From contig CALIZB010000159.1 in NCBI GenBank assembly GCA_938028625.1, positions 1-35,974 of the forward strand: DNA of 35,974 bases, in the 5' to 3' direction. Below the pieces are notes generated by a model that ran no database searches, was not told where the DNA came from, and worked only from the letters and a program-made list of their open reading frames with translations. The stretch comes from an uncultured Bacteroidia bacterium. Lineage in GTDB: Bacteria > Bacteroidota > Bacteroidia > JANWVE01. Below, piece after piece: positions 14,261 through 31,175 of the stretch. Within the stretch, counting starts at the first letter, position 1, and the number at the start of each line of letters is the position of its first letter. The position numbers were made by a program, and so were the translations under genes.

Positions 14261-16690
14261 TTAGAAATTCGCTCTTATCGCAAGATACAGATTTCTTCCT
14301 GGTGCGGATATACCTGATGCAAAATGTCTATAATGAGTATCCAGGATATTTTCTACTCCTGCTTGTAACATTACATATTTATGTATCTGGTATTGTGTGC
14401 GAATATTCAACGTAAACCATGCAGGCATACCTTGTGAAGTAGCATACTGTAAGTTATCTTCGCCGTTATTGCTGTAATCTCTTAACAATTTAGGTCCGTT
14501 AAACAGAGTAAAAAATTCTCCTTTGAAACGATTAAGACCGAGCTGAAAACCTACTCTACCATATACAGGAGGAATATGGTCAAGAGGGCGTTCTGTTTCT
14601 CCCGCTTTTTGCGGACGCACTCTACCATAAGTATATGTGACTGTTCCAAATACAGAGAATACTTTGGTGATATCTCCTGCTACGGTAAATGACCCCCCAT
14701 ACAGATAGGCTTTATTTTTATTTTGATTAGCTTGTACTTTGCTCATTACACCATCATAAAGAATAGAGTCTTGTCCATTAAATTTAAAGTCGTCTGTTAC
14801 AATAGCATTATCAAAAATAGTGTAAAATGTTACCAAATTAAGTTTTAGCTTATCATTATCAAACGTTTTTTGAATACCAAACTCGGCATTGTAGGTATAT
14901 TCAGGTTTTATGTTAGGATTAGGTACAATCACTAATCTCTGGGCAGAATTACTATCAAATACTTTACCTAAATCGTCTATATTAGGCGAACGAAAACCTG
15001 ATGAAAATAGAGTAGAAACCCGTAATGAAGGAATAGGTTTGTATATTAAACCGATATTGCCTGTTAAAGCAGAGTTAGTTTGTGTTGCAGTTTTGAATGG
15101 AAACTTCATAACACTATCTTTATCATCAAATTTGGCATTCAAATCAATATAAGAAAAACGCAGCCCTGCATTAGTAACGAATTTGTCACTGATTTCCCAA
15201 GCATGCGTGCCATAGAGTGCCATAGTAGTAAGTGTAGAGCCTCCGTCAGGATAGCGTGTGCTTGCGGGGCTTTCTGTATTATTAGTGATATTTATTCTTT
15301 TAGCTTTGGACATAACAGTATTATGCGTACCTTCTATTCCATAACGGACTTCGTGTTTTTGTATTTTTTTCATTAAATCCGCATTGAGTGCAAAAACTTT
15401 TACATTTTCTATACGAGAAACTTTGTTATTGTTCTTAAATCTACGTGTATGTCGGCTTTCCTCTATATCCTGATAGGATAAAATAATTCGTGCTTGGTCA
15501 TAAGCGACATTAGGATTAGATAAATTGAGCGTATAAGCTGTTAATAAGCGTTTTTGGGGTCCATAGTACCATTCTGCAAAATTAGGATCACCATTGCTTT
15601 TTATTTCAGACAAACGGTCATAACGAGGTACATCGGTAGAATTAGAATACTGAACATTGAGTAAGTGCGAAATAGTACTATTTTGCTCAAAACGAATTTT
15701 TTGTGTCAAATCATATTGTTTGTAAGCCGAACCAATCTGAATATTAAAATCATCATTTTTGAGCGTAGTATCTCTACCATCTATGCGTGTTTGATAGATT
15801 TTGCGTTTGCCCCAATCTCCATGAAAAGGATTTCGGATATTGCCCATACGTAAATCCCCGAAGTCAGAGAAAGTGAAGCTGGTCAGAGATGCAAATTTTT
15901 TAAAGCCAAGATTTAGGTCTAAATGTCCTGTTTTTTCTTGATTAGCGGTAGAATACCGCGTAAAAGCATTACCTTTTATTAGCATTTTATCATCAGGGCT
16001 TAATGTAGGCTTGCGAGAATAAAAGTGCATTACTCCCCCAAGAGCATCACTACCATACACTACTGAACCTGGTCCAAATACTACTTCCACACGGTCTAAC
16101 ATATTTTGGTCTATGGTAATGATATTCTGTAAGTGTCCTGAACGATAAATAGCATTGTTCATACGAATACCATCTACAACTAATAACACTCTACTGGCTT
16201 CAAAACCGCGTAAAACAGGACTGCTCCCGCCTTGTTGACTTTTTTGAACAAATATGCCACCCGTTTGCATCAGTAAGTCGCCTGTATTTTGACTATTAGC
16301 GGTTCGGATTATTTCATCACTAATAACCGTAATTTGTTGAGCTACATCAGTTTTTTTCTCTTCAAATTTACTTGCAGAGATAACTATTTCATTCAAATCC
16401 ATAGTAGATTGAGTGAGTTTTACTTCATTATTGAGTTCTTTTATGCTTTGTAAAGAGAGTGTTACAGTTCGGTATCCTGCAAGAATAAACATTATATCCC
16501 CATTACCAAGTGAAGTTATATCTGCTTGTCCTTTGGGATTTGTAGTAATAATAGTCGTTTTCTCTGTATTAGTAACGACTACACCTTCTAGTGCGCGTAA
16601 AGTCTGCGCATCTTTTACTGTTACGATAGTTTGTGCATACGCGCATATAGCGACAAAGCACAATAGGAATAAGAAATATGCTTTTTTCAT
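14261..16690 (-). CDS. TonB-dependent outer-membrane receptor
   Basis: 809 residues. A signal peptide (1-20, ending CAYAQ) is followed by a carboxypeptidase-regulatory-like beta domain (22-92), usual in Bacteroidota receptors. Then come a TonB-box-like EIVISASK and a plug domain (about 114-225) with LRGFEASRVLLVVDGIRMNN and VEVVFGPGSVVYGSDALGG. The remainder is a 22-strand-type barrel with the late signature GFRSPNIDDLGKVFD and the terminal strand RNLYLAIRANF. The plug wording and GFRSPN motif are closest to what I recall of haem/haemoglobin- or metal-type receptors rather than SusC-type; no SusD gene is nearby. The substrate cannot be fixed from sequence. It is preceded by a small membrane protein gene that is probably functionally linked. 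Confidence 0.93.
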   Translation of the reverse strand: MKKAYFLFLLCFVAICAYAQTIVTVKDAQTLRALEGVVVTNTEKTTIITTNPKGQADITSLGNGDIMFILAGYRTVTLSLQSIKELNNEVKLTQSTMDLNEIVISASKFEEKKTDVAQQITVISDEIIRTANSQNTGDLLMQTGGIFVQKSQQGGSSPVLRGFEASRVLLVVDGIRMNNAIYRSGHLQNIITIDQNMLDRVEVVFGPGSVVYGSDALGGVMHFYSRKPTLSPDDKMLIKGNAFTRYSTANQEKTGHLDLNLGFKKFASLTSFTFSDFGDLRMGNIRNPFHGDWGKRKIYQTRIDGRDTTLKNDDFNIQIGSAYKQYDLTQKIRFEQNSTISHLLNVQYSNSTDVPRYDRLSEIKSNGDPNFAEWYYGPQKRLLTAYTLNLSNPNVAYDQARIILSYQDIEESRHTRRFKNNNKVSRIENVKVFALNADLMKKIQKHEVRYGIEGTHNTVMSKAKRINITNNTESPASTRYPDGGSTLTTMALYGTHAWEISDKFVTNAGLRFSYIDLNAKFDDKDSVMKFPFKTATQTNSALTGNIGLIYKPIPSLRVSTLFSSGFRSPNIDDLGKVFDSNSAQRLVIVPNPNIKPEYTYNAEFGIQKTFDNDKLKLNLVTFYTIFDNAIVTDDFKFNGQDSILYDGVMSKVQANQNKNKAYLYGGSFTVAGDITKVFSVFGTVTYTYGRVRPQKAGETERPLDHIPPVYGRVGFQLGLNRFKGEFFTLFNGPKLLRDYSNNGEDNLQYATSQGMPAWFTLNIRTQYQIHKYVMLQAGVENILDTHYRHFASGISAPGRNLYLAIRANF

Positions 16691-16849: not shown

Positions 16850-17368
16850 TTAACAAAAAAATTTAGGAGGAGGAGAAATTAAAGGCAAACTTAAATCTTG
16901 TATTTTGTATTCAAAAGAGTAGTAACTATATGAACTGCTGAACGTAATAAAAGAGTATATTATTCCATTTATACAGTACTCTTTCCCTTCAAATTTTGGA
17001 TTGATTTTACTTTTTTCTGATTTTTCTTGGCTATTCTGTATAGTTTCAGAGAGGTTTTTTCGCAGTTTATGTTCTTTTTTATCTAAGTAAGCTGTGAGAT
17101 ATAAAAGTCCTTCACTTTGGGATATGCTCACAATATCGTACCATTCGTTTTGCCAAATAAACTCTTTTTGATTGATACGAATAAAGTTTTTATCTTGAGT
17201 AGAGATAACAAGCTGTTTAATATGTTTTGGATTTTTGTGACTCACTTTACGTTGGATAGTTTGATGGTGTATACTTAATTGTAGTAAAGCTATGGCTGTA
17301 TGGATAAAAATATAAAATATCCATACAGATAAAGTGAAATAGGCTATGATTTTTGAGTAATCAAACAT
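16850..17368 (-). CDS. Small inner-membrane protein, probably linked to the TonB receptor
   Basis: 172 residues. One N-terminal membrane helix (about 8-32) is followed by a mostly extramembrane part. The central segment reads KEFIWQNEWYDIVSIS, then a Leu/Tyr strand and LDKKEHKL. From memory this matches a set of uncharacterised Bacteroidota proteins with an EF-x-x-x-G-x-MYDIV ... D-K-E pattern and a PPPK tail, often found beside TonB receptors; here the end is PPPKFFC. This is the reason to group it with the receptor 159 bp downstream rather than with the cytoskeletal-type cluster upstream. It has its own -7 box 7 bp before the ATG. Function unknown. Confidence 0.7.
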   Translation of the reverse strand: MFDYSKIIAYFTLSVWIFYIFIHTAIALLQLSIHHQTIQRKVSHKNPKHIKQLVISTQDKNFIRINQKEFIWQNEWYDIVSISQSEGLLYLTAYLDKKEHKLRKNLSETIQNSQEKSEKSKINPKFEGKEYCINGIIYSFITFSSSYSYYSFEYKIQDLSLPLISPPPKFFC

Positions 17369-17375
17369 CTAAGTG

Positions 17376-17383
17376 CAAATATA
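17376..17383 (-). promoter_or_regulatory. -7 box of the small membrane protein gene
   Basis: Reads TATATTTG on the minus strand, ending 7 bp before the ATG at 17368. It supports a transcription unit separate from the preceding gene, which ends at 17428. Confidence 0.5.
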
Positions 17384-17427
17384 AAAGATTTTATTTTAAA
17401 GTCCTAAACAGGGCTATAATGTGCGGT

Positions 17428-18177
17428 TTATACTTTTTTTAATACTTTTTTTATCTCTTGAATTTTTTTATTGCATGCTTCAATCTGTTTTTTTAACTGT
17501 TGTATTGAAGCATTTTCTATATTTACTTTTTCCTTTATCTCTTTTTTAGATGGCTCTTCTGCTTCTTTTAGAGGTGTTTTGGTTTCTTTTTCCACTCGCT
17601 GTCTTATACCCTTCATATAGAATACAAAAAAAGAAAACAAGAGAGAGACAAAAGCTACACCTATAATACCCCAGGTTAGACCATCAAAATTTTTGAAGTA
17701 ACTATGTTTTTTACTACTTTCCTCATTTTTTTGTTCTTCCTGGCTATCAGAATTTCTCTGTTGTAATATGTTTCTAATTTCATGCTCAAAATTTTTTTCA
17801 ATTTTATATTTGTATTTTATTAGATTATCATACCTATCATTTTTGTTAAAGTTGTCTATATCAATAACTTTGCTGTCATCCCAATTTAGAGTAAATATTT
17901 GAACATAGTCTTTTATAGTACGTATTTTTTGTATATCTTTTGCTTCATAATCTATGGCTTTTGCAAATCTCTTAATTTGATATTCAGCTATTTCATCATT
18001 CTTTGCTAAACTTTCCATTCGTACCTTCCAGTATTGAGTAGCTTTTTTTAAGGCATCAGGATTAGGATAATCATTCACATCTTGAGCTAATATAAACTCA
18101 ATAGAAGAGAAAAAAAGGATTATACAAATAGATGTTAATGTTCTAAATAAAAGGTTAGGCAAAGAAATATTATGCAT
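17428..18177 (-). CDS. Membrane-anchored coiled-coil protein, paralogue of the gene at 20722-21849
   Basis: 249 residues. Signal peptide 1-31 (ends IEFILAQ), extracytoplasmic helical domain about 36-140, acidic linker, one membrane helix (about 167-190) and a charged cytoplasmic tail with a coiled coil at 225-249. The extracytoplasmic domain is plainly homologous to that of the 375-residue protein: both have PDALKKAT or PEALKKAT, then YWK..M..L.KNDE, then IR.IK.YV.IFTL.WD. It lacks the C-terminal domain of its paralogue. It is the last gene of the cluster, 117 bp after the MotB/ZorB-like gene, with its own promoter box. Function unknown; homology to a gene beside the motor pair suggests a role in the same machine. 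Confidence 0.8.
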   Translation of the reverse strand: MHNISLPNLLFRTLTSICIILFFSSIEFILAQDVNDYPNPDALKKATQYWKVRMESLAKNDEIAEYQIKRFAKAIDYEAKDIQKIRTIKDYVQIFTLNWDDSKVIDIDNFNKNDRYDNLIKYKYKIEKNFEHEIRNILQQRNSDSQEEQKNEESSKKHSYFKNFDGLTWGIIGVAFVSLLFSFFVFYMKGIRQRVEKETKTPLKEAEEPSKKEIKEKVNIENASIQQLKKQIEACNKKIQEIKKVLKKV

Positions 18178-18212
18178 AGCATTGAACTTACATAAAGACT
18201 TATTTTTGGTTA

Positions 18213-18220
18213 CAAAGTTA
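18213..18220 (-). promoter_or_regulatory. -7 box of the gene at 17428-18177
   Basis: Reads TAACTTTG on the minus strand, 35 bp upstream of the ATG. Together with the 117-bp gap it suggests that the last cluster gene can be expressed apart from the upstream operon. Confidence 0.4.
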
Positions 18221-18294
18221 TGGGTTTTATTGATTTTTTAATTCACCTTTAATCTATCAAAATTTTTTTACTTTTTGGTATTTTAGCTATTTCA

Positions 18295-18978
18295 CTATTT
18301 TTTATCATTGAAAAACTCATTGTAGCTAATATAAGGTGTAAGATATACTATAATTTTTTGGTCATCTTCAGGTCGTGTATAGCTGTTTAATCTTCCCCAA
18401 CCACGTTTATCTTCTCCACTTCCAACGATTTGAATTTTGCAGGTAAGTTCTCTATTGTGCCTGTCAATTTTTTCCCTCAAATCATAATTATCATACCAAA
18501 TTTTGTACACTTCTAATGCTCTATTGTAGCTTAATTGATCATTAAGCTTATAACCATCTTTAGATGCCATACCTTCAATAATAAGCATATATTGAGAGTT
18601 TTTATATTTCGTAGTTAATTTTTGTATCATATTGAATAGTTTATTGCCTACGGATAGCAAATATCCTATATCATCAGAGTTTTTTATGCGATGGTCAGCG
18701 TAACCGAATTTAATTTGTCTTTTGAGTTCAAAACGTCTATACTTATTGTTATATTTTAGTTCCCTTGAACTCTCTAATTCTTTCATATCATTTTCTATGT
18801 TTCTCATAATGCTATCCCTATATTCAACTTGCTTTTTTCTTTGATTAATCTCTTTTATTTTTTTTTGGTTATTGATATAAAAGATAACAAACAGCACTAA
18901 TGAAATAAAAAACATGCTCGTCATAAAGTCGGAATAACCAATCCAAAAAGTATGTTCATGCTTAGTTGACTTTATCAT
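18295..18978 (-). CDS. MotB/ZorB-like stator protein with OmpA-like domain
   Basis: 227 residues. The short cytoplasmic N-terminus leads straight into a single membrane helix, FWIGYSDFMTSMFFISL and onward (11-34). This matches the MotB/ZorB pattern W-x-x-x-x-ADFMTAM, and Asp17 sits at the position of the ion-path aspartate. A helical linker (40-90) follows. The OmpA-like domain (about 100-220) has LIIEGMASKDG, then the core N-DQLSYNRALEVYKIW and IVGSGEDKRGWGR; the usual late NRR segment is replaced by EDDQKIIVYL. Such domains hold peptidoglycan so that the partner rotates or moves against it. It lies 25 bp after the MotA/ZorA-like gene, as expected for such a pair. Confidence is high for the family and low for the process served. 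Confidence 0.88.
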   Translation of the reverse strand: MIKSTKHEHTFWIGYSDFMTSMFFISLVLFVIFYINNQKKIKEINQRKKQVEYRDSIMRNIENDMKELESSRELKYNNKYRRFELKRQIKFGYADHRIKNSDDIGYLLSVGNKLFNMIQKLTTKYKNSQYMLIIEGMASKDGYKLNDQLSYNRALEVYKIWYDNYDLREKIDRHNRELTCKIQIVGSGEDKRGWGRLNSYTRPEDDQKIIVYLTPYISYNEFFNDKK

Positions 18979-19003
18979 ATTTTTATCTAAAAAGAACTCA
19001 ATG

Positions 19004-20725
19004 TTAATTATGATTTATATTATTTTTATCATTATCGTTATTATCATCCATAGAATATTTACTTAACATAGTTTTTATTTTTTTATTGGATATTGGAAGT
19101 AATGTTTTAGCTTTTTCAATTTGGACTTCATTTTGTAAAAGTAGTAATTCTTTTATTTTTATGATTTCTTCTAATTGCATAATTAGTTGTTTATTCAGTA
19201 GAATTTGAGTTTCACTAATAGGTTCTAAATATTGTAGGTTCTGTATAGAATAAGCAGAGTGTTCTTTTTTCAAGAAATTTGTCATTTCTGCTTCCTCTTC
19301 TTTTAGAACTTGTAATCTTCTTTCAATAAACTCAGACATTTTCTTAAACTCTTTCTCTACGTTTTGTAGAGTTTCAGGTATGATATTATTAAGTTTATTA
19401 AGCGTTTCTACCATTTCTTGTTTGGTATTAGATACGTCTTGTTGATATTTAGAGCTTATTTCTTGATATATCGCTATAACTTGACTATAAGTTTTCTCGT
19501 ATTCCGCGCTTAGATTATTCATAAATTTTGTAAAAGTTTCATTTGACACCCTCATCATAACTTTATGAGTGTTTGACAGTTCTTCAATTTCTTTCAATTG
19601 TGTATTTATGAATTCTATAATACCTTCTACAGCGACTATTCTTTTATCTAGATGATTAGCTATTTCATGGATTCTACCAGTTGATATCAAAGTTTTATCT
19701 AATACCTCTACTATACGACTTGTTGTTTTAAGCATATCATTTAGATTATCTATGTATGCTGTGAATTTGTCAAATTTTTCAAGAGCAAGTGTGAGTTTAG
19801 ACATTATGTTGAGATTAGCCTGTGTAATATCACTGATTTTAGTATTATTGATAGTATTGATGAGTTCAGCTTGTTTTTCTATCGTTGAGTAGGTTTTGTC
19901 TACAACTTTATTGATATTATCACTACTTTTTTGAAAATAATCAGCGTTTTTATTTGCTACTTCAAAAAATCTTTTTGTGTTTTGGTCAAATTCACTATTA
20001 AACTGTAATAAGCTACGTTGTAGTTGTGTAAATGTATCTGTCATGCTTTCATTGATTACAGGCATAATTTCTATTTGAAGCAGTGAAACAAGGTCATTTT
20101 TATTTTTTTCTTGTGTATGAATAGCTTTTGGTAAAAGCATATAAGCTAATATAGTGGTAAACACTAAACCTAACCCACTTGTAAACATGGTATATCCGAC
20201 CTCTTGAAGAAATCTCTGAACATTATCTTCAACTAAGAATTGAACAAGTTCGCCATATATAAAGCTAACAACAATGCATGTTATTGTACCTATCAAACCT
20301 AGGTATAATGGAGCATAAATGTAAGTATATGCTTCTTCTCGTAATTCGTTTAATTTTCTTTCAATTAAACTATTTATAATGTTAAACTCTGCTATGGAGT
20401 TATGATTACGTACTAAGTAGATATTTATGTCATTTATGAGTTTTTGAAAGTATTCTGAACTTTCGTGCTGTTGCTCGAGCAAATGTATCTCTACTGTATC
20501 CAGTAAATCTTTATTGCTATGAGCAACTTCTTGATACTGGTTTATGTTAGTGATAATGTCAGGAATCTTATCGTGTACAAGGTCTATCTTCAAAACTATG
20601 TATTTTTTTATGAGTATATTATCACTATCAGGAATAAAGTTTTTGAGTTTTATTATTGAGTTATTAGAGATTAGTAAAGCTATAAGTTGAAAAATACAAA
20701 TGAAAATTATTATGTAAGTTATCAT
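19004..20725 (-). CDS. MotA/TolQ/ExbB-superfamily channel protein with long coiled-coil tail (ZorA-like)
   Basis: 573 residues. Membrane helix 1 at 3-19, a cytoplasmic helical stretch (20-135), helix 2 at about 137-160 with LGLIGTITC (equivalent to the GLLGTV of ExbB/TolQ) and helix 3 at about 178-199 with TSGLGLVFTTILAY (the TGLGL-type pore helix). From 205 to the end is almost continuous helix with heptad character, low in Pro and Gly, ending in an Asn/Asp-rich tail. A pore module with a cytoplasmic tail of roughly 370 residues is the architecture of ZorA of Zorya systems, not of MotA, GldL or ExbB. It overlaps the preceding gene by 4 bp (ATGA) and precedes the MotB/ZorB-like gene, so the two should form an ion-driven motor unit. 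Confidence 0.87.
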   Translation of the reverse strand: MITYIIIFICIFQLIALLISNNSIIKLKNFIPDSDNILIKKYIVLKIDLVHDKIPDIITNINQYQEVAHSNKDLLDTVEIHLLEQQHESSEYFQKLINDINIYLVRNHNSIAEFNIINSLIERKLNELREEAYTYIYAPLYLGLIGTITCIVVSFIYGELVQFLVEDNVQRFLQEVGYTMFTSGLGLVFTTILAYMLLPKAIHTQEKNKNDLVSLLQIEIMPVINESMTDTFTQLQRSLLQFNSEFDQNTKRFFEVANKNADYFQKSSDNINKVVDKTYSTIEKQAELINTINNTKISDITQANLNIMSKLTLALEKFDKFTAYIDNLNDMLKTTSRIVEVLDKTLISTGRIHEIANHLDKRIVAVEGIIEFINTQLKEIEELSNTHKVMMRVSNETFTKFMNNLSAEYEKTYSQVIAIYQEISSKYQQDVSNTKQEMVETLNKLNNIIPETLQNVEKEFKKMSEFIERRLQVLKEEEAEMTNFLKKEHSAYSIQNLQYLEPISETQILLNKQLIMQLEEIIKIKELLLLQNEVQIEKAKTLLPISNKKIKTMLSKYSMDDNNDNDKNNINHN

Positions 20726-21849
20726 GATTTTTTTTCATTAAAATAAAGTGTTATTTTTTTAGTTACAATCCATTTATCATCTTGTAATTGTACTTCGCCT
20801 TCCTCAGCATGAGATAGCTTGTTGGTATCATACTCTTTCCATCCGTATTTTTGGACTAAATTATTCATGAGTGTTTTATCATGAAAGGTAATAATAGTGT
20901 TTATATTATCACGGTATAAGCTAAGAGTGCCTTTCTTACCATCTTTTGTAAATATAACATAGCAGGTGTCTTCATCAGCAGATAGCTTATGATTTTTATG
21001 GTTTATACCTTCTTGATCAATGCTTGGAATACCATAATAATAAAAAGTACTATCATTGCTTGGCTTTTTTTCTTGTATGCTAACTTGTTTTGATATTTCT
21101 ATTTGATTTTCCTCTGTTTTTTTCATGTTTTCAAGTCTTTCTAGTTTCTTTTGTATATTTTGTATATCTTGTAAGATTTTGTTTTCCGACTCTTGTTGCG
21201 GGGGTATTTTTTGAATATTATCATAACTTGCATTTTTTTGACTTTTTTGCCGTTTAACTTGTATGTAAGCAAGTAAAGAAAAAACAAGTGCAGTAATAGC
21301 TATGCCTATGGTTAAGTAGAATAATAGGTTTGTGGAGAGTGTAGATTTTTCATTCTTTTTTTTATTCTCTGTTTTGGTCTCATCAGTTTTATTTTGTTCA
21401 ACTTTTATATCTTCTGATTTATTATCAACTTTTTCCTTTTTTAGTATTTTGTTAATTGTATCTTTGAGTTCATTGAGTTCATTGGTAATTTTATTTTTGT
21501 AGTCTTTTAGACTTTTGTAGTTATTGTTGAATTTATCCGCATCTTTGATTTTATTTTTATCCCAGTCTAGTGTAAATATTGCAACATATTCTTTTATGGG
21601 GCGTATTTCATTTTCTGGTTTTGTTTCTTCTTCTCGTTTTTTTGCTAATTGACCAATCTCTTTTTTAAGATTTTCATCATTTTTTACTAAGTTATTCATG
21701 TGTTCTTTCCAGTATTCTGTAGCTTTTTTCAGTGCTTCGGGGGTAGGGCAATCATCAGATTTTTCCTGTGCAAAAACATTGGTTGACAGGATAAGGAAAG
21801 ATACTACTCCAGCACACAATAAGACTCTATATAAGAATAAACGCATCAT
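20722..21849 (-). CDS. Membrane-anchored coiled-coil protein with extra C-terminal domain
   Basis: 375 residues from ATG 21849 (ATG 21846 also possible; a TTG at 21855 is less likely). Signal peptide to about 28 (TNVFAQ), extracytoplasmic helical domain about 34-137 homologous to the protein at 17428-18177, a Lys/Glu-rich linker, one membrane helix (about 173-198), coiled coil (about 220-248) and a C-terminal globular domain (about 268-373: beta-rich, with TKDGKKGTLSLY and DDKWIVTKKITLYF). So part faces the periplasm and the larger part the cytoplasm, where it could contact the tail of the ZorA-like protein or the actin/tubulin-like proteins. The stop overlaps the next start (ATGA), implying translational coupling to the motor gene. 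No family recognised. Confidence 0.82.
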   Translation of the reverse strand: MMRLFLYRVLLCAGVVSFLILSTNVFAQEKSDDCPTPEALKKATEYWKEHMNNLVKNDENLKKEIGQLAKKREEETKPENEIRPIKEYVAIFTLDWDKNKIKDADKFNNNYKSLKDYKNKITNELNELKDTINKILKKEKVDNKSEDIKVEQNKTDETKTENKKKNEKSTLSTNLLFYLTIGIAITALVFSLLAYIQVKRQKSQKNASYDNIQKIPPQQESENKILQDIQNIQKKLERLENMKKTEENQIEISKQVSIQEKKPSNDSTFYYYGIPSIDQEGINHKNHKLSADEDTCYVIFTKDGKKGTLSLYRDNINTIITFHDKTLMNNLVQKYGWKEYDTNKLSHAEEGEVQLQDDKWIVTKKITLYFNEKKS

Positions 21850-21892
21850 AAGCAATATTAAATTGAATTTTACTTTAATTTAAGGTTTGAGT

Positions 21893-24800
21893 TTAGTTAT
21901 TTTTATCTACGCGGTATCTATGATTAAGCCAATCTTGGATAATTCCCACGGGTATGTAGAAAAAGGCACTCTCGTCCATAAATTTATTTTCATCTAGCTC
22001 TTCTATTTTGCTTCTATAGTCATATCCAGTACTTATGAAGTCTCCGTAATATGGAATATTCTCTTTTATAGCATTCATGAAGCGTGCTACAATTGATTGA
22101 TTGATACCAAATAAATCTTGAAAATCAAGTTTTTGATGTAATGCCTCAAAAAAAGCATGGTATTTTTCCATTACCTTAATATATTCTTCAACAATTCCCT
22201 CTTCTTTGAACTCTTTCCATTGTAAAACTTCCTTACTCTCTATACCTGAGTAAGATTTTTTAATATCTTTTATGTCAGGTAGTTCTTCATCTTCAATATA
22301 AAGCCCTCCTTTAGCTGTAATTTCCTTGGGTATCTCGTTTTCTAGTATAACTTTGATAGGGTCCTTACTTTCTGGGTAAAAGTGCCTAAATATCTCAGAT
22401 ACATATTTTTCTCTAATTGTAGAAGATGAGGTCAGAATATTGAATGATTTAGAACCTGTACCACTGAAAAATATCTCAGAAGGAGGATTTATAGCATTAA
22501 ATTTAATTAGGTCTGCAATATGATAGATAATGTTAGTATAGTAGTATAAAAGAATAATTTTGAATTCAGGATCGTTTTTTAAGAGTTCTGAATAATTGAA
22601 TTCAGAGTCTTGGTTTTGTTTCTCTAAGGCGAATAATAAATTATTGAACTCAGTGCAATTATTTTCAGTTCTCTTAATGATTTCCAGATATTCTTTTGAA
22701 ATTTTTTTATCTAACTCAGTAGAATAGTATTTTGTTAAGAGATTGGAATTAGGTTTAGTATTATATCCAGAACCGAATATTATATTTCCTGCAAAATGAA
22801 AAGATGAGAAAAGAATAGGTTGGTTACCTTTGAACACATTTATGTCTGTAGTTCCCCCACCAATATCCACAGATACAGCAGGCTTTATAGAGCCGCTTTT
22901 TATCTTATTAGTATATTTGTAAAAATAAAAAGGTGCAAAGGACTCGGGAATACTTTTGCTTACAACCTCTTTCGAGAGGTGTCTTTTTATTGATTTGCTC
23001 CATATTTCTTCTAATTCTGTTCTTTGGTTCATTGTCATAACAGAAGGATAAAACCATATAATGTTAATACGGTCAGGTGAGTAATTTTTCTTAACTGCTA
23101 TGGATTTGATGTGAATTACAATCTCTTCTATGAATTTTTCTCTGTATTGTTTATTTTCTATGTTGTTATCTAGCCATTTTAGATTAGTTTTGTATCCTTC
23201 GCCGCCATATTTATGTTTTTGAGTATGGTACATCCATGCAATATTAAAACCTGATAGTGCTTGCATTTGTTTGCTTTCTGTAATTGCAGGACTTTTTTGT
23301 ATAACTGTTCTTGCAGGAAAGTGATATTCTTTTGTCTCTTTGGACTGGTTAGATAAAAAGAAGTGTAAATTTTGTGCAAGGTACTGGTCAGATAGTTCAA
23401 GTTTATCAGAGAAATCTTTAGCCATAAGAATTAAGCTACATTCTACAATTTCTTGGTAGGTAAGAGATTTAATATTAGCATTTTTACCTTCTTTGTATTC
23501 AATATGTGTGTTAGTTGTGCCGAAGTCTACGGAAAAATAGATTTTTTCCTCACCTCCCTCTGCACTGCGCCATTTAGGAATAACAATCCCACTGGCATTA
23601 TTTTCTATTAAATGTATTTTTACATAATCAAAGTCTTTTTCATGATTAAGAATATAATAAGTAATGCCCGCAAATTGATTTTCTGATTTACCTTTCTCTG
23701 TATGACATATTTCATATATTGGTTCTACGGTTTCTGTTGTTTCTTTGTAGAAGTAAGCCTTTATTTTTTGTCTATAGCGTTTATCTGCATCTATAAGTTG
23801 TACTCTATATTCTCCATTAGAAAGCTTAAATCCAGGGTAAATAGCAAGATTGACTTTTACAGATATAATAGCACCTTTATTTTCTTTTTCAGAAATATTT
23901 GGTTCTATATCTTTATGATAAGTTCGCATATAAGCAATAATTTTATCTTTCTGAATAGGAATCTTTAAATGAACTTCCACGGATTCTCCCACTCCTTCTT
24001 TTATTTCAAACATTTTTTTATCATTTTTTAGCGTTCTGTTAAGGTCGTCAATGGTAAAGTATTCGAAGAATGTAGATTTGAGGGGTATTAAATAACTTAC
24101 CTTATTATCAGATGATTTAGATACAAGATTGCCGTCTAAATAACTTTCTTTGTTAATCGGGTAGGGTAAGGAAATAAGATAAGGTTCCAAAAAATCGTCT
24201 ATCGTAAGATAAGGATAGAGGTGTGTTGTACCTGGTAATATTCTTTTCGATGTATCTGAAATGGGCGCCTTATAGGGTACAGTTATTTTTTCAGGGTCCC
24301 ATACATCTTCTACGTACATCAAAGAATCATTAAATCTTTCAACAGGCAAAACAAGTGGCAGTTTAGTTTTTGTAACATCTACTTTTCTGCTAGGTTGTAT
24401 TATAAAATCGCTATTCCTTATTTTACTGTCTTGACTTTCTATTCTTTGTTTAGGCAAATATACATCTTTAATAGGTTTTACATAATCATTTTCATTCTCA
24501 CCACATAGATAGTCAAATAAATCACCAAAACTATTTTCGTTATAATCGTAGATTTCACTATATAGGTTGTTATTAAAGTTTTTTATTTTTTCCTCTAAAC
24601 ATCTTTCTAAGTAATTCCACAGTAGCCTTGTAGAGCCTAATTCATGTAGTATTCTATATTTTTTGTATAGAGCATAAAAAGATTTGATAAATTGTTCTTC
24701 GCGCTCGTAAATTTGACAATAATCATCATCAAATAAGGTATCCTTACCAAAAGATATATCACGTAAACCTTGTTTTTGCAGATTATTAGGTGAAGGAAAG

Positions 24801-25312
24801 AATAAAGTTGCTGGTGAGGTACCACCTACAATAACATTGTCTATTTTAAGAATGTACAAGTCTTCTAACAAGTGAAAATTATAGGCTTTTTCATCTTGTG
24901 TTAAGTATAATTCAAGGGTCTTGGCAATTAGATAATGTTCTTTTGAGGCTTTTTTTAATCTTTCCATCTCTGTTTTTCTATTCCATCTGATAATCTTAAC
25001 CTTATGCTTATTAGATAGAAAGTCTTTGTTAAAAAAGGCTTGAGCAACATCTAGCATATCAGATATTGTCTTGTGGTATATAGTTTTACCATCTATGGGG
25101 AACCTTTTATCCTTAAACTTATTGAGTGCATCTACAACAATAGCCATGTTAGCAAAAGGTGAAGGAATAGAAGTAATTTTGTATAAGCTAGAACCTCCTG
25201 ACGGGTCCTTTATGTCATTTATTTCACTAGGTGTGTAACAATTAGGACTTTCTGTCCATCCTTCAATATTTTCAGTTCCTTTTTCAGTAATTCTAAATAT
25301 GATTTTGTTCAT
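21893..25312 (-). CDS. Actin/Hsp70-fold ATPase with large N-terminal extension
   Basis: 1139 residues, cytoplasmic, no signal peptide. The C-terminal half is an actin/Hsp70-type ATPase: phosphate-1 loop YFSVDFGTTNTHIEYK (592-607), a connecting segment INIIWFYPSVMT (749-760), phosphate-2 loop AVSVDIGGGTTDINVF (812-827), adenosine motif SEIFFSGTGSKSFNIL (945-960) and a late KEITAKGGLYI (996-1006). Residues 1-590 match nothing I know; they include a GGTSPATLFFPSPN segment (163-176) and several beta-rich stretches. Residues 1010-1139 are helical. It may be a distant relative of SrfB-like Hsp70-fold proteins, but I cannot confirm that. It lies 17 bp after the tubulin-like gene, so the two products should be made together. 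Confidence 0.87.
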   Translation of the reverse strand: MNKIIFRITEKGTENIEGWTESPNCYTPSEINDIKDPSGGSSLYKITSIPSPFANMAIVVDALNKFKDKRFPIDGKTIYHKTISDMLDVAQAFFNKDFLSNKHKVKIIRWNRKTEMERLKKASKEHYLIAKTLELYLTQDEKAYNFHLLEDLYILKIDNVIVGGTSPATLFFPSPNNLQKQGLRDISFGKDTLFDDDYCQIYEREEQFIKSFYALYKKYRILHELGSTRLLWNYLERCLEEKIKNFNNNLYSEIYDYNENSFGDLFDYLCGENENDYVKPIKDVYLPKQRIESQDSKIRNSDFIIQPSRKVDVTKTKLPLVLPVERFNDSLMYVEDVWDPEKITVPYKAPISDTSKRILPGTTHLYPYLTIDDFLEPYLISLPYPINKESYLDGNLVSKSSDNKVSYLIPLKSTFFEYFTIDDLNRTLKNDKKMFEIKEGVGESVEVHLKIPIQKDKIIAYMRTYHKDIEPNISEKENKGAIISVKVNLAIYPGFKLSNGEYRVQLIDADKRYRQKIKAYFYKETTETVEPIYEICHTEKGKSENQFAGITYYILNHEKDFDYVKIHLIENNASGIVIPKWRSAEGGEEKIYFSVDFGTTNTHIEYKEGKNANIKSLTYQEIVECSLILMAKDFSDKLELSDQYLAQNLHFFLSNQSKETKEYHFPARTVIQKSPAITESKQMQALSGFNIAWMYHTQKHKYGGEGYKTNLKWLDNNIENKQYREKFIEEIVIHIKSIAVKKNYSPDRINIIWFYPSVMTMNQRTELEEIWSKSIKRHLSKEVVSKSIPESFAPFYFYKYTNKIKSGSIKPAVSVDIGGGTTDINVFKGNQPILFSSFHFAGNIIFGSGYNTKPNSNLLTKYYSTELDKKISKEYLEIIKRTENNCTEFNNLLFALEKQNQDSEFNYSELLKNDPEFKIILLYYYTNIIYHIADLIKFNAINPPSEIFFSGTGSKSFNILTSSSTIREKYVSEIFRHFYPESKDPIKVILENEIPKEITAKGGLYIEDEELPDIKDIKKSYSGIESKEVLQWKEFKEEGIVEEYIKVMEKYHAFFEALHQKLDFQDLFGINQSIVARFMNAIKENIPYYGDFISTGYDYRSKIEELDENKFMDESAFFYIPVGIIQDWLNHRYRVDKNN

Positions 25313-25329
25313 AGTAGTAGGTATTATTT

Positions 25330-26826
25330 TTATCCTTTGTAATCTAATTGTTTATCTTGTATAATTTGCGCAGTAGCTCTATACATTAGCGAAATCAAAC
25401 GTTTGAAGTTAGATATGTCTTTTGAAAGTTCTTTTGACGACTTATTTAAGATATCATCAAAAGACTCGTAGTCTTTCATTCGTCTAAAAGAAAACAAACT
25501 AGAGCTTTTATGTGGAGTTATAGATTCTATTGATGAGAAAACTTCTTCTTTATTCTCTTCATCAATTTTGAAAGGTTTGAAAGCAACATGGTTCTCTGCC
25601 ATTTCCCTTAAATATTGATAATAAAGTTCTATGAATTCTTTCATGTCTTGGTATACAGGGTCGTTTGTGTTTATTTTTGTTTCGTCGAACCAAGGTGATT
25701 TTTTGTTAGATATTTTAGGTAATCTATCTGTAAAATAGCGTGTCATTAAGAAAAATTGTATGAGTTCATTTTGTATTTTTTTTCTGTCTTTATGGGATAA
25801 ACAAGTAAGAGTTAAATATGGTGTAGAAGTGCTATATGAGGCTGTACTATATTCTTTTTTACTCACTTCTTCATTTGTTGTAAAATCTGTATCCATAAAA
25901 TCAAAGATAGATAAGGCACTAGCAAACTCTATAAAATGAGCTTTATTTTCTTGTGTTCTTCCACCTTCTGAATTTTCATAGGTAGCACCGTTAGTATATC
26001 CTATGTAATAAATAGAGTTGAGTTGTTTGGTATGAATTATATTATTGTAGTAGTATTCAAGTGCAGATTTTGTTTTAGAAATAAAGGTGTTACTATTTAT
26101 TTTACTACTTTCTGTATTTTCTAGGTTAAAATAAGGAAGCACACTAATAGCACCGATAACAGCATCTTTAATATAGTTATGATTAGGTATTTTTTCATCT
26201 GGATTACGAAGGTTTTTCAATAATGTAGGAAATCCTGACGCACCTGTACCTCCAAAAATAGAACTTATAATAAATATGCGGTCACTTGAATTGAAAGAGC
26301 TAGCAAATAATTTAAAGTATTCCGCGTCAGAAAATTGATTAAGTACTATGCTTCCTATATTAGGGTTGCCTTTAAAGCCTACTTCAAGATTAGTTTCTAA
26401 ATTATCTTCTGAAAATAGCAAGCGAAGTAATGCTTGCGAACTTTCGGTCATTGTATTAAGATTGAGAAAATCTTTGAGGTTTTTATTTTGTATGTCCTGT
26501 ATCGTTTGGTGGAAACTGTTTTCTTCTATTGTAATAAGAGTTTTTAATCCATCTATATCGCCAGCAAAAGTTTGTATATTTTTTAATTTAAGCCTAAAAA
26601 AATTATTATCAGTGTGTTCTACATTATTTCGTATTCTATTGTAAAGTTTAATGAGTCTTATTGTTTTATTTAAATCTCCGTTACTGTTATCAGGGTCAAT
26701 AATGATAGGAATAATTGTATCAGAGTCATTTGAGTCAAATTTTACGCCTGCGGCAGCTAAAAATACAAGATGCTTAATTACTCTGGCTCCTGTACCTCCA
26801 ATGCCAAATAAAAATAACTTTGCCAT
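25330..26826 (-). CDS. Tubulin/FtsZ-superfamily GTPase-like protein
   Basis: 498 residues, no signal peptide. The N-terminus FLFGIGGTGARVIKHL (6-21) is the first nucleotide loop, followed by strand IIPIIIDPDNSNGD with an acidic ribose-contact position (about 38-51). IISSIFGGTGASGFP (186-200) is the tubulin signature loop (GGGTGSG-like). ENKAHFIEFASALSIFDF (293-310) resembles the central-helix/T7 region of divergent FtsZ-like families, in which acidic residues complete the GTPase site between subunits. The C-terminal 190 residues are helical and replace the usual FtsZ C-terminal domain and tail. This fits the divergent Tubulin_2/FtsZ-like families rather than FtsZ itself. It sits between a small membrane protein and the actin-fold ATPase, within one probable operon. 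Confidence 0.85.
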   Translation of the reverse strand: MAKLFLFGIGGTGARVIKHLVFLAAAGVKFDSNDSDTIIPIIIDPDNSNGDLNKTIRLIKLYNRIRNNVEHTDNNFFRLKLKNIQTFAGDIDGLKTLITIEENSFHQTIQDIQNKNLKDFLNLNTMTESSQALLRLLFSEDNLETNLEVGFKGNPNIGSIVLNQFSDAEYFKLFASSFNSSDRIFIISSIFGGTGASGFPTLLKNLRNPDEKIPNHNYIKDAVIGAISVLPYFNLENTESSKINSNTFISKTKSALEYYYNNIIHTKQLNSIYYIGYTNGATYENSEGGRTQENKAHFIEFASALSIFDFMDTDFTTNEEVSKKEYSTASYSTSTPYLTLTCLSHKDRKKIQNELIQFFLMTRYFTDRLPKISNKKSPWFDETKINTNDPVYQDMKEFIELYYQYLREMAENHVAFKPFKIDEENKEEVFSSIESITPHKSSSLFSFRRMKDYESFDDILNKSSKELSKDISNFKRLISLMYRATAQIIQDKQLDYKG

Positions 26827-26854
26827 ATTTGTAGTAATTTGAGGTTATATTGAA

Positions 26855-27292
26855 TTAAAAAGGTATTTTTCTATGATTGTTGCTAACAGATTTGAATAAC
26901 AATGCAAATATGAAGTATAAAATCAAATAGTAAAAAAGAACTGTAAATGCAAAGCCCCATGTGTCTCCATTTGTTATTTGCAGTTCTTTGCAATACATTT
27001 TATTAGTAATATCACTGCTTACCTTTAGAAAAGACCATAAGAAAGGCAACAAACCAGTTACAATTCCAACCATAGACCATTTACCTATACTAGTATACCT
27101 AGGCATATCTAATCCTTTGTAGTACAAAAAACTAGCTAAAAAAGAAACAAAAAGTATAACGAGTCCAATAGTATTGTAGAATGCGCCTGCGTCATAGGCT
27201 TTACATCTCATGTTAAAACCACGAAGATGCTCTCCTAAATCCTTACTATATAGGGACATTAACTCAAATATTGTTGCAAAAAGGTCTGTCAT
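26855..27292 (-). CDS. Three-helix inner-membrane protein
   Basis: 145 residues from ATG 27292, 4 bp after the upstream stop; an in-frame TTG at 27304 would overlap that gene by 8 bp and is less likely. An amphipathic N-terminal part (MTDLFATIFELMSLYSKDLG) with two Cys (30 and 101 overall) is followed by three membrane helices at about 40-58, 70-90 and 112-135, and a short basic tail. It has no recognisable family or catalytic motif. Encoded just before the tubulin-like gene, it is a candidate membrane anchor or adaptor for it, but this is inferred only from position. Confidence 0.75.
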   Translation of the reverse strand: MTDLFATIFELMSLYSKDLGEHLRGFNMRCKAYDAGAFYNTIGLVILFVSFLASFLYYKGLDMPRYTSIGKWSMVGIVTGLLPFLWSFLKVSSDITNKMYCKELQITNGDTWGFAFTVLFYYLILYFIFALLFKSVSNNHRKIPF

Positions 27293-27296
27293 ATGC

Positions 27297-28673
27297 TTAA
27301 TCAATAATAGTTAGTTTAAATAAAGTTTGCATGTTCCTGTTATTTTTTGCTAAATTATATATTAGTTCATAAAGTCCAAAAGTTTTTGTTTTTTCTTTTT
27401 CTAAATCATTGATATTAACAGAGTTATTTTCTATCCATTTTGGAAGTTCATTTATTTTAATACTAACTGTGAGATTGGTAGGAATAGGTTCTTCGCTCGT
27501 TATGATAAAATAATACTTATGCTTTTCGTTTTCTTTTTCTAACCGAATTTCTTTAATTGTATATTTTGGTTCAGACAACTGGTAATTTTTTTGGTTAGAT
27601 AAATAAGACTCACCATACAACACTTCAAGATTTTCCATTCCTAAGACTTCCAGAGTAAATTTTATTTGAGTAGGTTTTTTTATCTTTATTTTATTTTTCT
27701 CTTTTTTTTCTATCTCTACACCTTGAATATTATTTCTTCCTTGAAGTATTCTTGTATTTATAGATAAATCATTTATGCTACTGATAGAAATAAATTCTCC
27801 TATGCTCTCTTGATGTAAAAAATTCATTTTTTTAAGTTTTATTATTTGTTCAGGTTGTCCAATAAATAGCATATAAAAAGGACGTTGTATATTACTTAAC
27901 TGTGTTTTTTGATTATTACTATACCAAAAGTATCCATTAAAATCTACATTATAGCCAACAAGATAAAAACTTTTATTCTTTATATCTATTCCTTTAAGAA
28001 ATTCTAATACGTTTTTGGAGTTATCTTTATGGTTAGAGGTTATGAGGTCAGACGCTAGAACAACAACATTCTCTTTATCTGCTTTTTCAGCAATCTTGGG
28101 AATAAGCTTGTGAAATAAAGAACTTAATCCATTAGACTGTTTCAGTTCATCAGACAATTTGTCTTCTATGTATTCACTCAATTGACTTTTATTGTTAAAA
28201 CTATGTTGTTGAATACATTCTCCTTCAGAATTTAGTAAGCATATAAAAGTTTTATTTTTTTCAATAAGTTTAGTTACCTTATCAACTAAAATTCCATTCA
28301 TGGATTTAGACATGTCCATTTTTTCTTTCTTAATATAACCTTTGGTAAGGTCGCTACCGTCAATATAGATGTGATAATTTGTATTGATAGTTTCCCATAA
28401 GATTGTACAACCACATTCCGATTTAAGGTATTTAATAAACTCAACGCTATCTATCTCACCTGCTTTCTGACCTTGCCAAGGCTCATTAGTTATTTTCTTA
28501 TTTTTGCTGAATACCTTTTTGAACTCTTCATAATCTTGTATGGTTACTTGTTTATTATCACAGATGTTTTCAAGATTGCTATTCCATTTATTGCTATCTC
28601 CTCTCTGGCATGACACAGCTAGTAGTGACACAGCAACCCATAAATAGTGTTTGAAAGACGCTATTATTTTCAT
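27297..28673 (-). CDS. Lipoprotein with degenerate von Willebrand A-like domain
   Basis: 458 residues. Lipoprotein signal with Cys22 (SLLAVSC). A conserved-looking segment follows (45-95, including CGC at 87-89). From about 98 a vWA-like Rossmann fold appears: strand NYHIYIDGSDLTKGYIKK, in which DGSD sits where active vWA domains have DxSxS, then ENVVVLASDLITSN (201-214), the typical V-V-x-x-SD strand, and RPFYMLFIG (264-272). The MIDAS is therefore partial: D105 and S107 remain but the second Ser is missing. The rest (about 310-458) is beta-rich, probably Ig-like. It is likely to face the periplasm. Its stop is 4 bp from the next start. FtsZ-like/vWA pairings are known in other bacteria (Makarova and Koonin 2010, from memory). 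Confidence 0.78.
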   Translation of the reverse strand: MKIIASFKHYLWVAVSLLAVSCQRGDSNKWNSNLENICDNKQVTIQDYEEFKKVFSKNKKITNEPWQGQKAGEIDSVEFIKYLKSECGCTILWETINTNYHIYIDGSDLTKGYIKKEKMDMSKSMNGILVDKVTKLIEKNKTFICLLNSEGECIQQHSFNNKSQLSEYIEDKLSDELKQSNGLSSLFHKLIPKIAEKADKENVVVLASDLITSNHKDNSKNVLEFLKGIDIKNKSFYLVGYNVDFNGYFWYSNNQKTQLSNIQRPFYMLFIGQPEQIIKLKKMNFLHQESIGEFISISSINDLSINTRILQGRNNIQGVEIEKKEKNKIKIKKPTQIKFTLEVLGMENLEVLYGESYLSNQKNYQLSEPKYTIKEIRLEKENEKHKYYFIITSEEPIPTNLTVSIKINELPKWIENNSVNINDLEKEKTKTFGLYELIYNLAKNNRNMQTLFKLTIID

Positions 28674-28728: not shown

Positions 28729-29391
28729 TCAAAACAATCTAATTACATTATTTTGATAATCTATTTCTACTCTTCCAAATCTAGATAGAGCACTCTGTCC
28801 GAGTAGTAATGGGGCACGCGCATTCTTAATTACAATTGCGTCTACATCACGTAGAATTTTATTTCCTACTTCTACTTGTCTTAATGTTATTTTTTTTGCG
28901 GTCAATGTATTTCCTGAAGCATCTTTATAGGTAACTTGCTCTTTTATATCACTTTGCTTAATACGCCTTTTTTTTGTCAATAACTGAAACTCTAACTCTG
29001 ATATAGAAATATCTGACGCACCTGTATCAAAGACAAAATCTAATTCTAATCCATTTATCCGTATAGGAATTTCATAAACTCCACTTTCTGTCTTGAACAT
29101 AGGTATCTCAACATATTCATTATTGTTCTGATCACGTTTTACAAGAACTTTTCTTCGTGTTTTTTTCTCCTCGTCATTATTATCATTCTCTTCTGTGTCA
29201 TCATCTTTTTCAATGATTACTTTGTTTAGTTCTTTTTCCTTTTTTATTTTTATATCATCATTATTTTCTTCTGCTTCCTGATGCTCTAACCGCCTTCCGG
29301 ATTTGCTACAACCCGCAGAAACAAATACTAAAAAGTAAGAAACTAATACAAGTAGTTGTAATAAAAAAATTACCTTTTTCATAAGATACAT
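28729..29391 (-). CDS. Lipoprotein with retroviral-type (clan AA) aspartic protease domain
   Basis: 220 residues from ATG 29391; ATG 29382 (MKKVIFLL) is an equally workable start, and a TTG at 29403 lies inside the promoter box. Lipoprotein signal with Cys28 (FVSAGC), then a very acidic, flexible stretch (about 35-85, rich in Asp, Glu and Asn). The protease domain covers about 92-220: VYEIPIRINGLELDFVFDTGAS with the catalytic Asp122 in DTGAS, and LLLGQSALSRFG near 195-206, as in the single-domain bacterial pepsin-retropepsin family that works as a dimer. It is the first gene of the cluster, 55 bp before the vWA-like lipoprotein. It may process a cluster protein in the periplasm, but no substrate is evident. 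Confidence 0.85.
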   Translation of the reverse strand: MYLMKKVIFLLQLLVLVSYFLVFVSAGCSKSGRRLEHQEAEENNDDIKIKKEKELNKVIIEKDDDTEENDNNDEEKKTRRKVLVKRDQNNNEYVEIPMFKTESGVYEIPIRINGLELDFVFDTGASDISISELEFQLLTKKRRIKQSDIKEQVTYKDASGNTLTAKKITLRQVEVGNKILRDVDAIVIKNARAPLLLGQSALSRFGRVEIDYQNNVIRLF

Positions 29392-29400
29392 TATTTTCTG

Positions 29401-29408
29401 CAAAGCTA
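29401..29408 (-). promoter_or_regulatory. -7 box at the head of the cluster
   Basis: Reads TAGCTTTG on the minus strand, 9 bp before ATG 29391. It is the only clear box ahead of the eight tightly spaced genes that follow, so it may drive about 11 kb of transcript. No -33 element at the right distance was found. Confidence 0.45.
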
Positions 29409-30248: not shown

Positions 30249-31175
30249 ATGCTATCGTTTTCTTCACAAACAAACTTTTATCAAGGTAAAGTAAGAGATA
30301 TTTATACTATAAAAGATGAGTATCTAGTGATTGTGGCAAGCAATCGTATATCTGCCTTTGACCATATTTTACGACAGGAAATTCCTTACAAAGGACAGGT
30401 ACTTAACCAAACGGCGGCCTATTTTTTAGAAAAAACAAAAGACATAGTACCTAATCATTATTTAGGTAGTCCTGCACCGAATGTTACAATAGGAGTTCGC
30501 TGTACTCCATTTCCGATTGAGATTGTAGTAAGAGGATATTTAGTAGGACATGCATGGAGGGAATATAAAGCAGGTAAAAGGACTTTATCAGGAGTAGTTT
30601 TACCCGAAGGTATGCGTCAGAATGATAAATTTCCTGAACCTATTATCACGCCTACTACAAAATCTACGATTGGACACGATATTGATATTAGTGTAGAAGA
30701 AATCTTAAAATCAGGTTTAGTAGAAGATTTTGAATGGTATCAAATTCAGGATTATGCTTTGAAGTTATTTGAAAAAGGTACACAAATGGCAAAAGAAAGA
30801 GGCTTAATCTTGGTAGATACAAAATATGAATTTGGAACAGATAAAAATGGAAATATCTTACTCATAGATGAAGTACACACTCCTGATTCTTCTCGTTATT
30901 TTATGGCAGAGAGTTATTATGAAAGACAAGAACAAGGTTTAGCCCAAATTCAACTTTCTAAAGAATTTGTGCGTGAATGGCTAATCAAACATAATTTTCA
31001 GGGATTAGAAGGACAAATTTTACCTGATTTGCCCCCTGATTTTGTACAAGAAGTAAGTAAAAAATATATTGATTTGTATGAAAAAGTTACAGGAAGCACT
31101 TTTATTCCTGCTGATTATTCAAAAGAACAGACACAAAATTTAGTACAAGAATTTTTAGCTACTTTAATATCATGA
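30249..31175 (+). CDS. purC: Phosphoribosylaminoimidazole-succinocarboxamide synthase
   Basis: 308 residues from ATG 30249 (MLSFSSQTNFYQGKVRDIY). The enzyme joins aspartate to CAIR with ATP in de novo purine synthesis. Signatures: YQGKVRDIYTI at the ATP site, ASNRISAFDHIL, the first family signature IEIVVRGYLVGHAW, TPTTKSTIGHD, and the second signature LVDTKYEFG followed by LIDEVHTPDSSRYF. Length and wording fit the roughly 300-residue form found in many Bacteroidota. The last 4 bp overlap the ATG of the PASTA protein gene (ATGA), indicating translational coupling. Confidence 0.96.
   Translation: MLSFSSQTNFYQGKVRDIYTIKDEYLVIVASNRISAFDHILRQEIPYKGQVLNQTAAYFLEKTKDIVPNHYLGSPAPNVTIGVRCTPFPIEIVVRGYLVGHAWREYKAGKRTLSGVVLPEGMRQNDKFPEPIITPTTKSTIGHDIDISVEEILKSGLVEDFEWYQIQDYALKLFEKGTQMAKERGLILVDTKYEFGTDKNGNILLIDEVHTPDSSRYFMAESYYERQEQGLAQIQLSKEFVREWLIKHNFQGLEGQILPDLPPDFVQEVSKKYIDLYEKVTGSTFIPADYSKEQTQNLVQEFLATLIS

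Follow-up and report, generated by a model that had tools for sequence, protein, structure and literature searches.

A ZorAB-like motor pair in a Bacteroidota operon with tubulin-like and actin-fold partners

Within the window, by which we mean the complete stretch of 35,974 nucleotides that was analysed (contig CALIZB010000159.1 of assembly GCA_938028625.1, from an uncultured Bacteroidia bacterium), a ZorA/ZorB-like motor pair is encoded at 18295-20725. As judged by profile and tree comparisons, this pair falls into a separate ZorAB clade that neighbours Zorya and lies outside MotAB, ExbB/TolQ and GldLM. It makes up the last part of an operon that runs from 28673 to 18295, entirely on the minus strand, and that codes, in this order, for a lipoprotein with a predicted von Willebrand A (vWA) fold, a small membrane protein, an FtsZ/tubulin-like GTPase, an actin-fold ATPase, a one-helix membrane protein, ZorA and ZorB. 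An earlier interpretation of the same DNA (the sequence-only reading) had described the pair as being without Zorya effectors, which was correct, but had overlooked the conserved operon around it. Our preferred interpretation, which we consider reasonably likely, is that the pair is the proton- or sodium-driven motor module of a non-Zorya envelope-spanning machine, akin to the FtsZ-like/vWA/OmpA operons.

The ZorB-like B subunit (18295-18978, minus strand) has 227 residues, with one transmembrane helix that carries the channel aspartate, Asp17, and an OmpA-like peptidoglycan-binding domain. It matches the PADLOC profile ZorB1 (E 1e-16), and a profile from four members of its family retrieves solved ZorB chains from the PDB (8vvn, E 3e-11; 8qyd, E 2e-10). 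Asp17 (GYSDFMTS) is unchanged throughout an alignment that combines the motor family with Zorya ZorB and two MotB sequences, and G136, L149, S150, R153 and G186 from the OmpA domain are equally invariant. As a single sequence, the protein stays under the Pfam cut-offs (OmpA, 21.4 bits with a cut-off of 27.2; MotB_plug, 18.6 with a cut-off of 24) and thus the single-sequence Pfam evidence is weak. Comparison of profiles, however, provides strong sequence-level support for the ZorAB assignment.

The ZorA-like A subunit (19004-20725, minus strand; 573 residues) matches the PADLOC profile ZorA1 (E 8e-10). Its three predicted transmembrane helices (residues 1-19, 138-156 and 180-198) follow the pattern of ZorA and ExbB and not the four-helix pattern of MotA. 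The GLxGT pore motif, which includes T147, aligns in register with Zorya ZorA and ExbB; further residues of the pore region are S183 and T190. Beyond residue 200 there is a helical cytoplasmic tail of 373 residues with a total of only 4 prolines and 2 glycines. A PDB profile search with ZorA returned coiled-coil noise and a weak match to TolQ. The sequence-only reading had proposed a MotB-like protein with channel Asp17 and an OmpA-like domain, together with a MotA-like protein with pore helices and a tail of about 370 residues. Both descriptions have been borne out, the former by residue invariance and by the PADLOC and PDB matches, the latter by the predicted helices and the length of the tail.

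Placement of the pair inside ExbBD/TolQR or GldLM had been named beforehand as the result that would speak against a ZorAB-type motor, and both trees and profile comparisons place it outside of these families. The A-subunit profile is closest to Zorya ZorA (E 1.5e-11), followed by ExbB (6e-5), MotA (1e-3) and GldL (0.03). The B-subunit profile matches ZorB (E 7e-15) and MotB (2e-7) but neither ExbD nor GldM. In the A-subunit tree, the motor family forms its own clade (support 97/92), as does Zorya I (100/99), with MotA and ExbB outside. In the B-subunit trees it is again a separate clade (100/99), apart from Zorya I. Two of the Zorya I loci (L142 and L144) were confirmed by their ZorC and ZorD neighbours; Zorya types II and III entered the comparison as PADLOC profiles only. 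Within Zorya, the trees have long branches, and the order of their deep splits is uncertain.

Assignment of the pair to MotAB was rejected, as the A subunit does not have the four-helix pattern and falls outside the MotA clade. ExbBD/TolQR was rejected because the A subunit is outside the ExbB/TolQ clade and the B subunit has no likeness to ExbD, and GldLM because profile likeness to GldL and GldM is not convincing; the genome carries a separate GldL of its own. Membership in Zorya was rejected on account of the missing effectors and the separate clade. The motor clade also contains pairs from Parabacteroides, pairs linked to DarT, and stand-alone pairs. The latter are two-gene ZorAB-like units (L175, L177, L178, L179) from large genomes of one family, with no recognised partner nearby.

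The genes of the operon are closely packed: neighbours overlap by 4 bases in one case and by 8 in another (8 if an upstream TTG start is taken), and no gap is longer than 37 bases. The one-helix membrane protein (20722-21855, minus strand), which overlaps the start of the zorA-like gene by 4 bases, has a signal peptide, a periplasmic part, one transmembrane helix and a C-terminal domain. It is preceded by the genes for the actin-fold ATPase (21893-25312, minus strand), the FtsZ/tubulin-like GTPase (25330-26826, minus strand), the small multi-helix membrane protein (26855-27292, minus strand; its ATG start was judged from homologues) and the vWA-fold lipoprotein (27297-28673, minus strand). The one-helix protein and the small multi-helix protein both belong to the inner membrane. 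Scans for promoters and terminators gave results at chance level. The G+C content of region 16850-28673 is 29.2%, that of the flanks 36.1% and 32.8%.

The tubulin-like protein (498 residues) contains the loops GIGGTGxR and SIFGGTGAxGFP; on its own it stays under the Pfam cut-offs (Tubulin_2, 22.8 with a cut-off of 27), but 30 of 32 homologues match Tubulin and 28 of 32 match Tubulin_2 (best E 2e-10). The actin-fold protein (1139 residues) contains the phosphate motifs DFGTTNT and DIGGGTTD, and 17 of 28 homologues match Pfam FtsA. Its AlphaFold model (pLDDT 79) resembles MreB, Hsp70 and ParM in Foldseek (E about 1e-8 to 1e-7), and residues from about 588 to 1015 align with PilM, MamK, MreB and FtsA at Z of about 10, PilM being the best structural relative. 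The N-terminal part of about 580 residues has no recognised fold. An alternative assignment as virulence factor SrfB was rejected, as it is based on one weak match among the 28 homologues. For the lipoprotein, the predicted model (pLDDT 86.5) has vWA domains as most of its best structural matches, with Z up to 7.7, which stays short of the thresholds applied (Foldseek E 0.001, VIA Z 8), and among 32 members, no more than one or two are matched by vWA sequence profiles. Assignment of a vWA fold, which relies on the model, is thus good but not certain.

Additional genes adjoin the operon. Upstream of the vWA gene, a lipoprotein that belongs to the clan AA (retropepsin-like) aspartyl proteases is encoded at 28729-29403 (minus strand) and is a probable accessory. 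Homologues directly follow zorB in four loci (L007, L068, L079, L147); in L148, the homologue comes after the one-helix gene instead. In L011-L013, a trypsin-like lipoprotein (as assigned by Pfam for L011) is found after zorA in place of the aspartyl protease, and L007 and L079 additionally have an SNase-type lipoprotein (Pfam for L079). A periplasmic proteolytic step in the machine is plausible. Directly after zorB, a shortened paralogue of the one-helix protein (17428-18177, minus strand; 38% identical) is found, which is without the C-terminal domain and is lineage-specific. The gene run ends with a membrane protein of 172 residues (16850-17368, minus strand) that has no matches and is of uncertain membership. 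The conserved order does not extend to the TonB receptor gene (14261-16690). Also outside the operon, at 31172-31987, is a protein of 271 residues that matches PADLOC family PD-T4-6 (E 1e-14).

The same seven genes occur in the same order in three further Bacteroidia genomes, and about 60 loci, which come from several families of Bacteroidota, share the operon order. A scan of genome contigs with a single tubulin sequence gave no matches, but when the alignment was used as query, 231 relatives were found in named genomes, and 80 loci were kept. A ZorA-like gene is present in 69 of these and a ZorB-like gene in 63. In G059's genus, which is most likely Hymenobacter, all of 120 genomes have the tubulin gene, as have 112 of 140 genomes from the corresponding family. 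The upstream neighbours are common to 30-36 of 40 Hymenobacter loci, which indicates a conserved chromosomal place. In a sample across the phylum, the gene was found in 13 of 395 genomes. The genus of the window is not uniform, as one genome (G001) is without the operon and another (G002) has different flanking genes. Distant tubulin-like/actin-like pairs were seen in L152 and L153 (1487-12024) near genes which, judged by eye, resemble the TerD family.

Some of the loci are without a motor. The 11 of the 80 loci which do not have ZorA comprise three that are ended by a contig edge and eight from Prevotellaceae. Complete Prevotellaceae loci code for the vWA protein, the small membrane protein, tubulin, actin and mostly the one-helix protein, and a ZorB of the motor family was absent from anywhere in the Prevotella genome that was searched. 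For whole-genome searches, the PADLOC ZorB1 profile was swamped by ordinary OmpA domains. A plasmid from the cyanobacterium Gloeothece (NC_014503.1; L140, 7505-15788) carries genes for the small membrane protein, for tubulin and actin and for two one-helix proteins, again without ZorAB. Thus, the motor behaves like a module that can be gained or lost by a core made up of the vWA protein, the small membrane protein, the tubulin-like and actin-fold proteins and the one-helix protein. This core can exist on its own, and the motor is not essential to it.

The pore residues T147 and S183 are kept in all 69 ZorA-like proteins that have a complete pore region and a ZorB neighbour. In four loci (L010-L013), ZorB is missing, and a whole-genome search finds no motor-family ZorB in these genomes. 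All four ZorA proteins have lost S183 and two have also lost T147, but as the genomes are related, this represents few events, perhaps one. The ZorA tail, the actin gene and the tubulin gene are retained in all four. It appears from these sequences that pore residues are maintained only alongside a B subunit, which points to selection on ion conduction, as would be expected if ions flow. Since either the whole motor or ZorB together with the pore serine has been lost in nature, the part played by ion flow can be tested directly.

For the proposed machine, we envisage that five ZorA surround two ZorB, a count which is based on homology. The OmpA domains of ZorB would grip peptidoglycan and act as the stator, and passage of ions at Asp17 and the ZorA ring would turn this ring with its long tail in the cytoplasm, after the Zorya structures (PMC11890865). 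The tail might then work on assemblies formed by the two NTPases, the actin-like and the tubulin-like protein, or such assemblies might switch the tail. The NTPases would be its natural partners, as few genes of the operon are better conserved. On the periplasmic side, the vWA lipoprotein would act, joined in some lineages by the protease. The ion gradient would be coupled to work in the envelope, which could be membrane remodelling or the handling of proteins or lipoproteins across the periplasm. A more specific version, in which a peptidoglycan-anchored rotary ion motor has a cytoplasmic shaft that either drives filaments of the actin-like and tubulin-like proteins or is gated by them, is advanced only tentatively. 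Both the rotation and the formation of filaments are inferences here, as is the role in the cell. If true, this would be a cytoskeletal machine powered by an ion gradient and a further use of ZorAB besides phage defence. In L006 (7698-9800), the C-terminus of a ZorA-like protein is fused to the domain that elsewhere ends the one-helix protein, which suggests that this domain acts at the ZorA tail.

We also considered whether the operon represents a new Zorya-like anti-phage type, in which ZorAB senses phage damage to the envelope, with the tubulin, actin and vWA partners as effectors. Zorya is the closest known relative of the motor, and in G701 as well as on a plasmid of Parabacteroides, relatives from the same clade lie next to a gene for a DarT-type ADP-ribosyltransferase, which keeps a defence reading alive. 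The patchy occurrence in the phylum sample and the absence from G001 would fit, as would the SNase lipoproteins that accompany L007 and L079. However, all 120 genomes of one genus have the tubulin gene, and where its place in the chromosome was compared, in Hymenobacter, this place is conserved, which rather speaks against a defence island. The operon is flanked by housekeeping genes, the tubulin gene has no match in phage records, and the partner proteins in the window have no convincing match to a PADLOC defence family. ZorC, ZorD and ZorE were found neither among the operon proteins (PADLOC) nor among the ten flanking proteins scanned, while such scans do detect ZorC and ZorD in control loci L142 and L144. 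RecJ, which lies about 16 kb from the pair, is the window's sole nuclease. The absence of Zorya effectors asserted by the sequence-only reading is confirmed. In addition, a second ZorAB pair, of the defence type and next to a TmtA homologue, is encoded elsewhere in the genome. We consider an anti-phage type rather unlikely, and the motor of the operon is probably not a phage defence. Of the two options that the sequence-only reading had left side by side, recruitment of the engine for another purpose is the better supported, given the conserved tubulin, actin and vWA partners, the universal presence in one genus and the lack of a defence partner; the other option, defence by way of unfamiliar effectors, is less probable.

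If the operon is not a defence system, ZorAB might still work like ExbBD, TolQR or GldLM and energise transport in the periplasm or at the outer membrane, with the tubulin-like and actin-like proteins merely assembling or positioning it. The three-helix A subunit with its GLxGT motif is indeed as in ExbB, the vWA lipoprotein and the proteases sit on the periplasmic side, and PilM, to which the actin-fold domain is structurally closest, is a type IV pilus assembly protein. The B subunit, however, has a peptidoglycan-binding OmpA domain as in ZorB and MotB and no likeness to ExbD or GldM, the long ZorA tail indicates a cytoplasmic output, and the TonB receptor gene does not belong to the conserved order. 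We regard this explanation as improbable and prefer the envelope-spanning machine with a cytoplasmic output.

Among known systems, Zorya ZorAB (types I and II; PMC11890865) shares with the window pair the A/B architecture, the channel aspartate, the OmpA peptidoglycan domain, the Ser/Thr pore ring and the long cytoplasmic tail of the A subunit. The window pair differs in forming its own clade and in having tubulin-like, actin-fold and vWA partners instead of ZorC/D, ZorE or another defence partner, and operons of its type are core genes in at least one genus. Flagellar MotAB, ExbBD/TolQR and GldLM are further members of the 5:2 ion-motor superfamily. With PilM, FtsA and MreB, the window protein shares the actin fold, but this domain is set in a much larger protein. 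The membrane complex TssNQOPR of the Bacteroidota type VI system also contains a vWA lipoprotein (PMC10781749); it was set apart by description alone, as the part of that source at hand describes no tubulin-like or actin-like component.

As far as the main text of Makarova and Koonin (PMC2875224) describes them, the FtsZ-like/vWA/OmpA operons, predicted in 2010 to be a membrane-remodelling system, are the closest known kind. Tubulin_2 corresponds to their FtsZ-like proteins (PMC9871819). Like the FtsZl1 (Tubulin_2) operons outlined there, the window operon unites an FtsZ-like protein of the Tubulin_2 kind with vWA, OmpA-family and membrane proteins. According to the same text, FtsZl1 has about 1000 residues, and the window protein, with about 498, is without its extended coiled coil and helical C-terminal domain; the operon is therefore not filed as a strict FtsZl1 member. 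Pfam identifies no GTPase or protein kinase partner in the window operon, such partners being frequent, though not universal, in the FtsZl1 operons as presented there. Unlike in those operons, the OmpA protein is the B subunit of a motor with a ZorA partner, and an actin-fold protein is present; in the main text of PMC2875224, as far as covered here, neither a MotA/ZorA-type nor an actin-like partner is mentioned. No paper linking a ZorA/ZorB-type motor to FtsZ-like/vWA operons was found in a search of mainly non-subscription literature (for PMC2875224, the main text). In the literature found, phage defence is the only setting in which ZorAB engines are described, and the function of the operons predicted in 2010 is still open. 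A ZorAB in an operon with tubulin-like and actin-fold proteins, universal in at least one genus, would make the engine a general module, and the motor operon offers a handle on the FtsZ-like/vWA operons.

Two further ZorAB arrangements were encountered. The second ZorAB-like pair of the window genome (L181; contig C63, 2292-9477, minus strand; 123 bits with the ZorB1 profile) adjoins a TmtA homologue of 1675 residues (PADLOC E 2.5e-149), TmtA being the Tiamat protein, and it represents a defence-type ZorAB with an unusual partner. The DarT-linked pairs from the motor clade are found on the Parabacteroides distasonis plasmid NZ_OY725823.1 (L139, 6529-10651) and in G701 (L176, 7520-13599), where the units also have a DUF6939/NADAR-like or ADP-ribosylglycohydrolase gene. 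These are candidates for a new DarT-ZorAB defence unit, and given these relatives, the motor clade may serve defence elsewhere.
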